Shown here: positions 59,316 to 64,000 of the stretch, in pieces
Layout: the number at the start of each line of letters is the position of its first letter
Position numbering within the stretch: the stretch's first letter is position 1
NCBI GenBank assembly: GCA_030609325.1
Contig: JAUWCL010000001.1
Location: 104,746-168,745 of the forward strand
Reading direction: 5' to 3'
Source of the DNA: Candidatus Krumholzibacteriota bacterium
Lineage (GTDB): Bacteria > Krumholzibacteriota > Krumholzibacteriia > Krumholzibacteriales > Krumholzibacteriaceae
DNA: 64,000 nt
Notes under the pieces: generated by a model
The model's input: the letters and a program-made list of their open reading frames with translations, nothing else
What the model was told of the DNA's origin: nothing
Databases searched by the model: none
Translations under genes and position numbers: made by a program

Positions 59316-61004
59316 TTATTTTTCCTCTGGTACTAGAAACCATTTTCCTTTCTCTTTATAATACAGGCCGGTATCCAATTTCTCATCATCACGATAGAGT
59401 ATATAATCTACATACCACTCGCTTGGGCCTTTGATCTTCGAACCGGCTCCGATCAGATCTTCTGGTCTATTTGCAACGCACAAAGTAAAAGGCAGCTTCT
59501 TATTGAATGGGTTCGGCATACAGGAGATCAAAAATATTCCTTCACCCTCATATCTTTTCTCTCCAAATTCTATTGCATTTTCACGAAACCTCAACGGAAT
59601 TCCGATTTTTAATTGTCCCAAAAATAAGTTGTCCTTCGGATTGCCGTAAATAAAACTGGCTTTATTTTGCCAATCGATCTCCAGAGCCTTTTTATCGCTT
59701 ATAAGTATAGGTTCTATTCGCGCCGAAGATAGAAACCCGGCAAAATTTTCCAGATCTCTCTTAACCTTGTTGATTGACTCATTATCAATAGCAGTCGGAT
59801 ATATGAGATAGATGCAATCGGTGCGAGCGAAGATAGCATCTAAGGGGCCTCTAAAGGCAGTTATCCTCTCTGGTAGATCCTCAACGGAAATTTGATTGAG
59901 TCTATTAGCGATAACCGGCACAAATTGGCCGAAGGTCGGATATTGCTCTCGGTGGGTTTCATAAACGTCCAGCAGGCTGTCAATATAGCTAATGTACCAG
60001 AACCCCTTTCCTTCGTGGTATTCCAGAGATTTCTCCTTCTTGAAATCTTTGTTGGTTTTAGCTCGAAGATGAATCTCGCCACAAGCACGCACTAAGTGCT
60101 CATAAAGAGTAACCCTCCAATTGGGATAAGCCTGCCTTTGCATCATTCTTTTGATAGGCTCAAACAAAGCAATAGATTTCATAAAAAGTTCATAGTTTTG
60201 GTCCACCAGGGGATTCACAAAAGGATGGCTCCATTCGTGTAGTGTTATACTTTCAAGATAATTAAGACAAGCAAAGGTTGTGCGCTTCCCCCTAATTGAG
60301 CAAGGGCCGATTACAGCATAGAGATCATATCCTTCTTCGGTCTTTATTGGTATCCCATAGTTTCCTGAAAATAGTGGCGAGAGAATAAGATTAAAGCTAT
60401 TCCTCGATTCACCGTAAAAATCTTCAAGGGTTTGAACATAATTATTCCCTTCAAATAATGAGTCCACCTCGGCAATCAAAGTGTCATACAGAGGCTTATG
60501 AGCATTATAGAACCGCATAAAGTCTGTACTGCGTGCAAAATCTCTGAGTTTATCGGCAAATTCCATCAGATTTTCATCACCATCTGCTCTTTTAATCAAG
60601 TAGTCTGAATACGGAGCTTTTTGAACAAGTTCTGGGGGATCATCATGATAGAGCATGAACTGAACTGGCGCATCGTAAGCAAAATTAGCGTCAATCAAAC
60701 TTTCAGCATAAGTTACAGCCGGATGATCTTTAAACTCTCCGAAATATTGGTCAATGTCATACTTGTATGCAGTCTTGCTCTTTATATGCCCTTTTTGAGC
60801 CCAGGAAGTGAAGTGCTGAACTACAGCCAATAACTCAATCTGGGAGTCAACGGTAATAGAAAACCTTTTTTGTGAAGGCTTTTCTACTTTACCAATTGCT
60901 TCCTCAGTTTCGATTACTTTCTGCGCAGTGACTGAGCCGACAAGCCCTATCACCATCAACCCTGCACAGGCTACTGTCACAAATATTTTGTAAATGTTTC
61001 TCAT
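59316..61004 (-). CDS. Exported DUF4932-like putative metalloprotease, AT-rich
   Basis: 562 aa with signal peptide (IFVTVACAGLMVIGLVGSVTAQ). The region LNYLESITLHEWSHPFVNPLVDQNYEL has a HExxH zinc motif (HEWSH), preceded by FNLILSPLFSGNYGIPI and GRKRTTF-type strands as in DUF4932 proteins, which are predicted peptidases. A C-terminal domain ends with KGPSEWYVDYILYRDDEKLDTGLYYKEKGKWFLVPEE. Codons are markedly AT-rich compared with every core gene in the window, and the Shine-Dalgarno GGAGGG is strong. These are signs of recent transfer. No attC separates it from the NAD synthase-like gene, so the two may form one cassette. Confidence 0.78.
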   Translation of the reverse strand: MRNIYKIFVTVACAGLMVIGLVGSVTAQKVIETEEAIGKVEKPSQKRFSITVDSQIELLAVVQHFTSWAQKGHIKSKTAYKYDIDQYFGEFKDHPAVTYAESLIDANFAYDAPVQFMLYHDDPPELVQKAPYSDYLIKRADGDENLMEFADKLRDFARSTDFMRFYNAHKPLYDTLIAEVDSLFEGNNYVQTLEDFYGESRNSFNLILSPLFSGNYGIPIKTEEGYDLYAVIGPCSIRGKRTTFACLNYLESITLHEWSHPFVNPLVDQNYELFMKSIALFEPIKRMMQRQAYPNWRVTLYEHLVRACGEIHLRAKTNKDFKKEKSLEYHEGKGFWYISYIDSLLDVYETHREQYPTFGQFVPVIANRLNQISVEDLPERITAFRGPLDAIFARTDCIYLIYPTAIDNESINKVKRDLENFAGFLSSARIEPILISDKKALEIDWQNKASFIYGNPKDNLFLGQLKIGIPLRFRENAIEFGEKRYEGEGIFLISCMPNPFNKKLPFTLCVANRPEDLIGAGSKIKGPSEWYVDYILYRDDEKLDTGLYYKEKGKWFLVPEEK

Positions 61005-61038: not shown

Positions 61039-61082
61039 CAAAATTTAGCCATCGCTGTAGAACCGCCAGTTACCCAACGGCA
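61039..61082 (-). mobile_element. Second group II intron 3'-end remnant
   Basis: Minus strand GTTGGGTAACTGGCGGTTCTACAGCGATGG matches the 3' end of the intron at 63653-63682 in all but two of about 32 bases. No domain V precedes it here, so only the last part (domain VI and end) remains. Confidence 0.6.
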
Positions 61083-61102
61083 CATCCCTTTGGCCACGAT
61101 TC

Positions 61103-61273
61103 TCATCCTTGCCAGATTGCCTTCGTGACTACCGAGCTGATCATCGCGAGGAGCATGCTGAGGAGGTTTCCGACCAAGAAGTGCGTGTTCGATATCTCCG
61201 ATCCTTGTTCGGTGTGAAGACGTGTGCCCAGCTTCATGGCGCCAAAGGCGATAAGCATCTGGGGGATAGCCAT
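61103..61273 (-). CDS. Possible small membrane protein or gene fragment in the array
   Basis: 56 aa from ATG: MAIPQMLIAFGAMKLGTRLHTEQGSEISNTHFLVGNLLSMLLAMISSVVTKAIWQG. The last third is a plausible membrane helix. No family recognised and no good ribosome-binding site. It lies between a partial attC and the intron 3'-end remnant. An overlapping longer ORF in another frame is less convincing. Confidence 0.3.
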   Translation of the reverse strand: MAIPQMLIAFGAMKLGTRLHTEQGSEISNTHFLVGNLLSMLLAMISSVVTKAIWQG

Positions 61274-61316
61274 GAATGAGCGCGGTATACAGCACGAGTC
61301 GCTCAAGGGGAGCCGT

Positions 61317-61355
61317 CAGCTGCAAGTGATAGATCATAAAAGCCCTTAGTTATGA
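61317..61355 (-). repeat. Partial attC-like site E, after the PIN fragment
   Basis: The PIN stop codon is followed by a box TCATAAC/TAA (61355-61346) and then ATCTATCACTTGCAGCTG, nearly the same as ATCCATCACTTGCAGCTA in site C. The matching second half was not found. Confidence 0.45.
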
Positions 61356-61495
61356 AGTACATCTTCAAGAAACTCTCGAGGTGTCATCACTTTGATACCC
61401 TTATACCCTGACACTTTTCGAAGAAGTTTATCGCCGCTAATAATTATCGCATCCACCTGCCAAAGCGCAAGCCAGAAACTTGTCGTCCTTCAGGC
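61346..61495 (-). pseudogene. PIN-domain toxin remnant, truncated and frameshifted
   Basis: Minus strand encodes DDKFLACALAG in one frame and, after a one-base shift, VDAIIISGDKLLRKVSGYKGIKVMTPREFLEDVLHN to a stop. Together they form the last 45-50 residues of a VapC-type PIN ribonuclease, including the late acidic residues (DDKF, SGDK). The N-terminal two thirds are missing: the sequence beyond 61500 is unrelated. A shift plus truncation makes a working toxin very unlikely, and no VapB-like antitoxin is seen. Confidence 0.7.
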
Positions 61496-61499
61496 ACGT

Positions 61500-61640
61500 T
61501 AACACCCTGGCCGTCTGCTTCTTCGCTTTGACGAGGCTGTATCAAGCTTCAGGGAGTGCGGTCTCCCCTTCGGCCTACATGGTTCCCTGGGTACGCTTCA
61601 CACGGCTCGTTCGGCCTCAGGCCTCCTCCCCGTGCGCAAG
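61500..61640. other. Unidentified inserted block in the array
   Basis: About 140 bases between the PIN remnant and site B. Plus strand CAAGCTTCAGGGAGTGCGGTCTCCCCTTCGGCC-type sequence has several short self-complementary stretches (GGCCTCAGGCC). It codes for nothing convincing and interrupts the PIN gene, so it is probably a mobile-element fragment. Confidence 0.4.
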
Positions 61641-62927: not shown

Positions 62928-63026
62928 ACATAACGGCAACGCTCAGCGACGAGCGGCGCAAACGCGAGCGTTGTTATTCTCTTGGGGGGCGGAGCGCCGA
63001 TCGCCAGCTGCAGCGGGATGTTAGGT
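62928..63026 (-). repeat. attC-like site D, after the MazF-like gene
   Basis: Best site: ACCTAAC (63026-63020) overlaps the MazF stop codon, GTTATGT closes it at 62934-62928. Arms CGCTGCAGC and GCTGAGCG pair with one bulged G, and CGGCGC pairs with GCGCCG. Total 99 bp. Confidence 0.75.
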
Positions 63027-63359
63027 TCCGATAATCTCGTTCAGTCCCTCAACCACTAATGCCAACTCTTCTGGAGTTGCCTTGCCAATTATTTTTCCTA
63101 TTCGTTCAACCGAGAGGGTTCTGATTTGACTGATCTTCGCCCAGGATCGCTTGGGCAATTTCGTAGAATCTAACTCTAATGTAAGCGGAAAGCCCGCTCG
63201 CTGAGACTGGCTTGTAAGAGCAATAGCTATCACAGTACCAGATCGCTCATTGAATACATCTTGACTCAGGATCAGTACAGGTCGCAGACCAGCCTGTTCC
63301 CTTCCACGAACTGGATTCAAATCAGCCCAGCGAATCTCGCCCCTCAGTATTCGGGCCAT
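63021..63359 (-). CDS. MazF/PemK-family mRNA interferase toxin
   Basis: 112 aa of the MazF/PemK growth inhibitor family, ribosome-independent endoribonucleases. N-terminal LRGEIRWADLNPVRGREQAGLRPVLILSQDVFNERSGTVIAIALTS has the family's GxxxWxdLxPxxGsEQxGxRPvlvlS pattern with the conserved Arg and Thr/Ser catalytic residues; SWAKISQIRTLSVERIGKIIG completes the fold. Overlaps the antitoxin gene by 16 bases. Its stop codon lies in attC site D, so the toxin-antitoxin pair is one cassette. Confidence 0.9.
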   Translation of the reverse strand: MARILRGEIRWADLNPVRGREQAGLRPVLILSQDVFNERSGTVIAIALTSQSQRAGFPLTLELDSTKLPKRSWAKISQIRTLSVERIGKIIGKATPEELALVVEGLNEIIGT

Positions 63360-63586
63360 TCAGACAAAACCTCCGCAAGCCCTTCTTCTGCCAACGCTTT
63401 CTCGAATTGAGGATCGAGCTTCGAGCATTCAATAGCCAACCGTCTATGCTGCAAACGATTAAGTTTTTCCTCAAGTGCAGCTTGAATTGCTTGGCTGCGA
63501 TTGGGAAACACTTTGCTTCTGATAAGACGATCTAGCTGGCTTAACAGGTTTTGCTCTATTGTGATAGCAATTTTTGAACGAGCCAT
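63344..63586 (-). CDS. Ribbon-helix-helix antitoxin
   Basis: 80 aa from ATG at 63586 (AGGTGG six bases upstream; the track's GTG at 63595 overlaps the ribosome-binding site). N-terminal RHH DNA-binding fold SKIAITIEQNLLSQLDRLIRSKVFPNRSQAIQAALEEKL, then a C-terminal tail that would bind MazF. Antitoxins of this type repress their own promoter; a palindrome overlapping the -10 box is found upstream. Confidence 0.85.
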   Translation of the reverse strand: MARSKIAITIEQNLLSQLDRLIRSKVFPNRSQAIQAALEEKLNRLQHRRLAIECSKLDPQFEKALAEEGLAEVLSEWPEY

Positions 63587-63598
63587 AATTACCACCTG

Positions 63599-63652: not shown

Positions 63653-64000
63653 CATCGCGGTAGAACCGCCAGTTACCCAACGTCCCCCGCACAGATCCCG
63701 GCGTGCGGAATTACCGCACCGGGCTCCTCAGTGATTCTCGCTTCCGCAGCAAGACTCAGCATGCAGCCTTGTTCGCTATCCCCTGCAGGGAGGTTGACAG
63801 GTGCTTATCCGGTCCTACATGCCCGGAACCTGTTTCCTTTGCAGGCTGCAAATCACTGTCCACCGCTTCCCCCTGTGGTCGGCCCTACCGCCTCTGAGTA
63901 CTATCAGTGGATCTGACTCCCGAAAGATCATCGGCGCTCCTCCCGGAACAACCTACCTGGTGCAATCCAGGAATCTCTCGGGTCTCCCAAGTTCTCGACG
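63653..64000 (-). mobile_element. Group IIC intron remnant with deleted reverse transcriptase (runs off the window)
   Basis: Minus strand reads toward the left: upstream part with GATAGTACTCAGAGGCGGTAGG-type intron sequence, a 36-codon stub (63863-63756) ending HLSTSLQGIANKAAC-stop that resembles the N-terminus of group IIC reverse transcriptases, then almost directly domain V and the 3' end CTGGCGGTTCTACCGCGAT near 63654. The whole body of the reverse transcriptase (about 400 codons) is absent. Group IIC-attC introns insert at integron attC sites, which agrees with its position next to the cassette array. Recognition is from memory of intron sequences, not alignment. Confidence 0.68.
63693..63726 (-). 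ncRNA. Group II intron domain V
   Basis: 34 bases, GAGCCCGGTGCGG-TAAT-TCCGCACGCCGGGATCT as a hairpin with a small internal bulge (CG against the 5' strand), the exact length and shape of group II domain V, the catalytic core. One base pair near the base of the stem is a G-A mismatch. Confidence 0.72.

Follow-up and report, generated by a model that had tools for sequence, protein, structure and literature searches.

A recently ORF-deleted class E group II intron in an integron cassette array, probably dependent on the reverse transcriptase of a sister copy

A group II intron at the end of a contig from a Candidatus Krumholzibacteriota genome (G000) retains its domain V (DV) and 3' end and lacks 413 codons of the reverse transcriptase (RT) gene carried by a sister intron in the same genome. 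We consider it probable that this copy is a resident class E intron that recently lost its ORF, that its kind targets the attC core by base pairing, and that it is now non-autonomous and depends on the RT of a sister. The stretch of DNA analyzed here (the window, 64,000 nucleotides, G000:C10:104746-168745) carries the 3' part of the intron (Table 1). Contig C10 stops exactly at window position 64000, and domain I (DI) of this copy and its 5' exon therefore lie off the contig.

The Rfam model Intron_gpII (RF00029) matches minus-strand positions 63654-63728 with 35.4 bits (E 6.3e-4), which is below the family gathering score of 40. Over its last 119 nt, the intron shares 97% identity with the 3' terminus of the RT-bearing intron on contig C22, so the DV match is not a chance hit. 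A preliminary description made from the sequence alone had reported a retained 34-base domain V and intron 3' end, and the Rfam model that it suggested as a check thus upholds this reading. DV begins with GAGCC and follows the pattern GAGCCC...GGGATCT, as in IIB-type introns with an AGC triad. The intron ends at 63654 with ...CTACCGCGAT|GG, and the 3' exon starts with GGT.

Table 1. Features of the window copy and of the neighboring cassette array (window coordinates).
Feature	Coordinates	Strand	Basis
3' part of ORF-less class E (IIB-like) group II intron	63654..64000	-	Rfam DV match; 97-99% identity to RT-bearing C22 sister on either side of deletion
DIII motif GGGAGTCAGATCCACTGATAGTACTC	63896..63921	-	conserved in all aligned relatives, ORF-less and RT-bearing
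RT stub ORF: GTG start, 35 codons, stop codon that of the sister RT	63756..63863	-	translation and match to C22 RT
DIV basal stem, 5' strand, CAGTGATT	63851..63858	-	pairs with 63729-63736
Deletion junction, a single AAGGC where C22 has two; 1,239 bp missing relative to C22	63766..63770	-	alignment to C22
DIV basal stem, 3' strand, AATCACTG	63729..63736	-	pairs with 63851-63858; fold
Domain V, 34 nt, AGC triad, identical to C22 copy	63693..63726	-	Rfam match and comparison with C22
Domain VI and intron 3' end	63654..63692	-	Rfam alignment; fold
Antitoxin (RHH_1) of following cassette, same strand as intron	63344..63595	-	Pfam PF01402
PemK/MazF toxin of following cassette	63021..63359	-	Pfam PF02452, 100.6 bits
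DI fragment of second, broken copy, EBS1 TAACGT at 61496-61501	61488..61639	-	95% identical to C36
3' end fragment of second, broken copy	61048..61081	-	97% identical to C22 3' end

Compared with C22, the window copy lacks exactly 1,239 bp (413 codons), which lie between two copies of AAGGC. The reading frame is preserved across the deletion: before it, the frame is that of the N-terminus of the C22 RT, and after it the frame is that of the last codons and stop of the same protein. The resulting stub is VDSDLQPAKETGSGHVGPDKHLSTSLQGIANKA-AC*, ending ...SLQGIANKA-AC*, which agrees with the earlier picture of an RT cut to a short N-terminal piece and joined directly to the 3' part. The two copies differ at 4 of about 190 aligned positions. 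Because these differences flank the junction on both sides, the window copy represents its own allele rather than a self-chimera of C22. The deletion spared the DIV basal stem, the ORF start, DV and DVI, and the ORF was thus removed with the ends of DIV kept, as in TeI3 of Thermosynechococcus elongatus. In known group II introns, the ORF start in DIV is the place of the RT-binding DIVa.

The junction lies 230 bp from the end of a MAG contig, in multicopy sequence and with only 5 bp of microhomology, and each of these features would suit a chimeric join at the contig end, with no ORF-less intron at this locus. We regard such an artefact as very unlikely. The differences on both sides exclude a self-chimera of C22, 5 bp would not suffice to join sequences in an assembly graph, similar ORF-less copies occur in the interior of contigs from two other genomes (G266 and G144), and an analogous AAGGC junction is present in a third (G020).

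The preliminary description had proposed looking for a full-length relative whose protein could act in trans, and a full-length relative with an open RT is present in the same genome. The sister intron at C22:112604-114028 matches the window copy in two blocks, 119 bp (97%) at the 3' end and 72 bp (99%) at the RT N-terminus. Its RT frame is open over 439 codons, with its 5' end at the contig end, and profile searches gave 348.6 bits for TIGR04416 and 112 bits for RVT_1. The protein is full length for the RT and maturase regions and has no endonuclease domain. As for TeI3, a related RT is therefore encoded in the genome of the ORF-less copy itself. Two 5' halves are also present, one, from another copy, running into the end of contig C36 and the other at the beginning of contig C6. 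Each begins with GTGCGCC, and an attC core immediately precedes it: ...ACGTTA| in C36, ...CCGTTA| in C6. The C6 and C22 parts most likely belong to a single full-length intron inserted on the bottom strand of an attC, because their joined flanks read as an unoccupied site in which R'' (GCCTAAC) is perfect and the interrupted cassette gene regains its TAA stop. The C36 copy sits on the attC top strand, in cassette orientation. We also asked whether C36 supplies the 5' half that the window copy lacks and rejected this pairing, since the overlap is just 85% identical over 39 bp and the sequences diverge beyond it.

These 5' halves show how the family could recognize its target. The DI of C36 matches RF02005 with 106.1 bits, and its EBS1, placed by register, reads TAACGT (UAACGU), which is complementary to the attC core ACGTTA. 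The same register gives six of six pairs in R478 (ACTGTT/AACAGT), in Halomonas (TCAATT/AATTGA) and in both S. meliloti and M. lotononidis (TGACGT/ACGTCA), and five of six in Acidithiobacillus. In the copy from G266, the 5' exon is CCGTTG, with core GTTG instead of GTTA, and EBS1 is CAACGA, with CAACG replacing TAACG; the change in EBS1 compensates the change in the exon core, which supports the proposed EBS1-IBS1 pairing. When 5' exons were compared with shuffled sequences for hairpin formation, those of C36, C6 and G298 scored better (z -2.5, -4.2 and -2.3), and the Anaerolineae sites in G144, G266 and G459 were no better than shuffles. For the latter three, the attC context accordingly rests on the CGTT core and on partial similarity between sites. 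The earlier suggestion that attC targeting would fit the location is borne out by the EBS1 of a sister and by the restored R'', and fails in so far as it relied on the intron being a group IIC-attC element.

The intron family belongs to class E (IIB-like) and not to group IIC, as had been proposed. Phylogenetic analysis of RTs placed the C22 protein together with S.me.I4 (support 87/98), an intron labeled class E (PMC5894124) that we recognized by its plasmid (pRmeGR4b) and disrupted frame. Trees that constrained the C22 RT to group with class C (p-AU 0.0035, about 0.003) or class D (p-AU 0.0008) were rejected. It could still be argued that the window copy is a IIC-attC intron that lost its RT, since it lies in a cassette array, its sisters are inserted at attC cores and the sister RT has no endonuclease domain. 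We find this extremely improbable. The C22 RT is just 30% identical to that of the labeled IIC-attC intron Kl.pn.I3, and the class C grouping is rejected. The RNAs differ as well: the 5' domains of the sisters match RF02005, whereas Kl.pn.I3 matches RF02001 and RF01998, and DV starts with GAGCC (AGC triad) in the window copy versus GAACCGCC in Kl.pn.I3, so that neither the CGC triad nor the RNA models of a known IIC member are found here. Finally, EBS1 and IBS1 are 6 nt long and the sister sites read GTTA|GG, against TTGT|T for IIC-attC introns (PMC7923331).

The cassette that follows the GGT of the 3' exon encodes a CopG/PemK toxin-antitoxin pair, and the intron shares its orientation, which confirms the cassette-array setting noted previously. 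The second copy of the intron in this array is in pieces (61048-61639), and about 400 bp of unrelated cassette sequence, including the end of a toxin-like gene, separates its two fragments. Directly past the 3' end of this remnant, as if in the next cassette, is a gene for a 562-aa DUF4932 protein (59316-61004, minus strand). On C22, an integron integrase gene (C22:110173-110885) lies just before the array, on the strand of the following cassettes, and is split into two frames with an internal stop. This gene is probably broken, and cassette shuffling in this integron may therefore have stopped.

The shredded copy makes decay a serious rival to our interpretation. The window copy could be dying, having lost its ORF by chance, and would then neither splice nor move and would erode as its neighbor 2 kb away has done. 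The deletion is recent and private to the window locus, which fits this reading. Nevertheless, every ribozyme part on the contig is retained, DV is the same as that of the sister, and the frame and the DIV stem are intact. We judge decay to be a real but somewhat unlikely explanation, in part because of what the ORF-less relatives in other genomes look like.

We scanned 84,980 species genomes, excluding G000, for an N-terminal stub joined to DV and obtained one true match, in the Anaerolineae MAG G020. A match in Rickettsiella had no domain V and was taken as chance. The same pattern had no match in viral contigs; 4,177 plasmid records matched in BLAST searches, none of them over 80% of the ORF-less query; and 20 genomes of the same family held no DNA relatives outside G000. 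The G020 junction also runs through AAGGC and has a different right end, for which reason it looks like a separate event. The left breakpoint common to both copies partly reflects the scan itself, because a match required the QGIANKA motif to be intact. Searching the DNA of 396 genomes from the class of G020 led to more ORF-less copies in G266, G144, G459 and G366, bringing the total to five other MAGs. The sequences from GTGCGCC to the 3' end are spanned in G266 (835 nt), G144 (789 nt) and G459 (534 nt), and DI-DIV of G144 scores 106.6 bits, level with C36. In some ORF-less copies, folding predicts a short hairpin in place of the ORF.

DIII and the 3' region lie 167-174 nt apart in each of the six ORF-less copies, compared with 1,343 nt in the RT-bearing copy of G210, and such near-equal spacing argues against random decay. 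The DIV basal stem is 97.9% paired across the six copies, with two-sided changes in 4 of its 8 pairs, and three more pairs with two-sided changes are found in DVI; part of this covariation may be older than the loss of the ORF. In the tree, G266, G144 and G366 form one clade (96/86), the window copy groups with C22 (100/100), and G020 joins the RT-bearing G208 loosely. These placements mean that the family lost its ORF at least twice. The losses in G266, G144 and G366 could themselves be independent if the clade has unsampled RT-bearing members.

In G144, a single deletion junction is common to three loci (C216, C359 and C103), and the genome also has an RT-bearing copy (C289). Repetition of one deletion at several sites, a property of TeI3, is thus seen in G144 and not in G000, with its one ORF-less copy. 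The C216 copy is complete, C359 has no DI and an interrupted DV, and C103 is truncated at its 5' end, as incomplete reverse transcription would give. Judging from these comparisons, the ORF-less clade appears to have persisted, and there is support for the view that the family makes ORF-less forms that spread, at least in relatives in other genomes. Such persistence and spread count against the decay reading. Truncated relatives are also frequent (G020 C55, G088 and G224), as the decay reading would have it.

Two side observations concern such degraded copies. Within 11 kb of G224 (G224:C11:19000-34500) there are four copies of the intron 3' end, at offsets of about 2264, 3451, 4502 and 13135. 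In two or three of them, domain V is interrupted by about 35 nt of GC-rich sequence. The copies are fused to another dispersed repeat of 115-161 nt, and the genome has no RT match; these copies look like MITE-like debris. In the Anaerolineae copies G144:C359 (segment 1483-1900) and G228:C82 (segment 58-393), short repeats resembling CCTGCCC...TTCAC...TCAGGGC are inserted in DI and DV, and a second small repeat family thus seems to land in these introns.

Together, these results are best accommodated by the following model. The EBS1 of the family (UAACGU, read from the sisters) pairs with ACGTTA, which places insertion at GTTA|GG, either at R' on the attC top strand or at R'' on the bottom strand. 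Deletion between the two AAGGC copies took the 413 RT codons in frame and left the DIV basal stem, the ORF start, DV and DVI. In its most likely working state, the RNA would need the RT of the full-length sister (C22 and C6) for splicing or movement. The model supposes that DI of the window copy is intact beyond the contig end, that this copy sits in an attC, of which the GGT of the 3' exon is the part seen, and that the C22 RT acts on it in splicing or mobility. Several observations count against it: G000 has a single known ORF-less copy with no sign of movement after the deletion, the array also holds a copy that is clearly in shreds, and an in-frame deletion has a one-in-three chance of occurring anyway.

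Each element has precedents: introns without an ORF, class E introns within cassette arrays, and IIB introns that follow attC sites (PMC2882425, PMC7923331). As far as the literature searched shows, the combination is new: a class E lineage with an EBS1 complementary to the attC core, insertion on either attC strand and repeated loss of the ORF. We tentatively propose, as a possibility that falls short of our main conclusion, that the EBS1 of this lineage is adapted to the near-universal attC core (CGTT[A/G]|GG), that its members lose the RT again and again, and that the resulting short, non-autonomous introns spread through attC sites with the RT of a sister, in the manner of MITEs but as integron-borne introns. 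An attC-directed family that has made ORF-less introns at least twice, with one lineage multicopy beside RT-bearing sisters in one genome, offers natural material for studying how a group II intron comes to rely on an enzyme shared with others, which has been proposed as a stage in the emergence of spliceosomal introns. It also represents a second intron route to integron cassette junctions, based on base pairing, besides that of the group IIC-attC introns.

Bacterial group II introns that lack an ORF nearly always share their genome with related introns (PMC4424553), and work on T. elongatus showed that the RTs of sister introns move such copies (PMC2882425). The window copy fits this pattern, because its RNA parts are kept, its RT is lost and a near-identical sister RT is available. 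Like TeI3 (PMC2882425), it lost its ORF from within DIV, keeping N- and C-terminal ORF remnants, and has RT-bearing sisters in the same genome, and several ORF-less copies per genome are found in its relative G144. It differs in lineage (TeI4h lies apart from the C22 RT in the tree), in its target, the attC core, and in the loss of the ORF at least twice in its family; moreover, trans mobility was shown experimentally for TeI3, whereas the present family is known from sequence. H.ha.F1 and H.ha.F2, from a cassette cluster of Halorhodospira halochloris (PMC7923331), resemble it in their class E RTs, toxin-antitoxin cassettes and upstream attC-like structures. Unlike the present family, they are 5'-truncated with broken RTs, and neither EBS1-attC pairing nor a clean ORF deletion was described for them (PMC7923331). 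UHB.I2 (CL1/IIB1, PMC7923331) is likewise an IIB-type intron right after attC in cassette orientation, but it has an RT, of another class, and its exon sequence is not conserved. The IIC-attC introns S.ma.I2 and Kl.pn.I3 share attC insertion and the missing endonuclease domain, and differ in their class C RTs, RNA models and TTGT|T site, and as a rule in using the attC bottom strand only (PMC7923331). The RT clade (87/98), RF02005 RNA and EBS1 register are shared with the class E introns of R478, Acidithiobacillus and rhizobial plasmids, which carry their RTs and have other EBS1 sequences and sites, such as that after AACAGT in R478.
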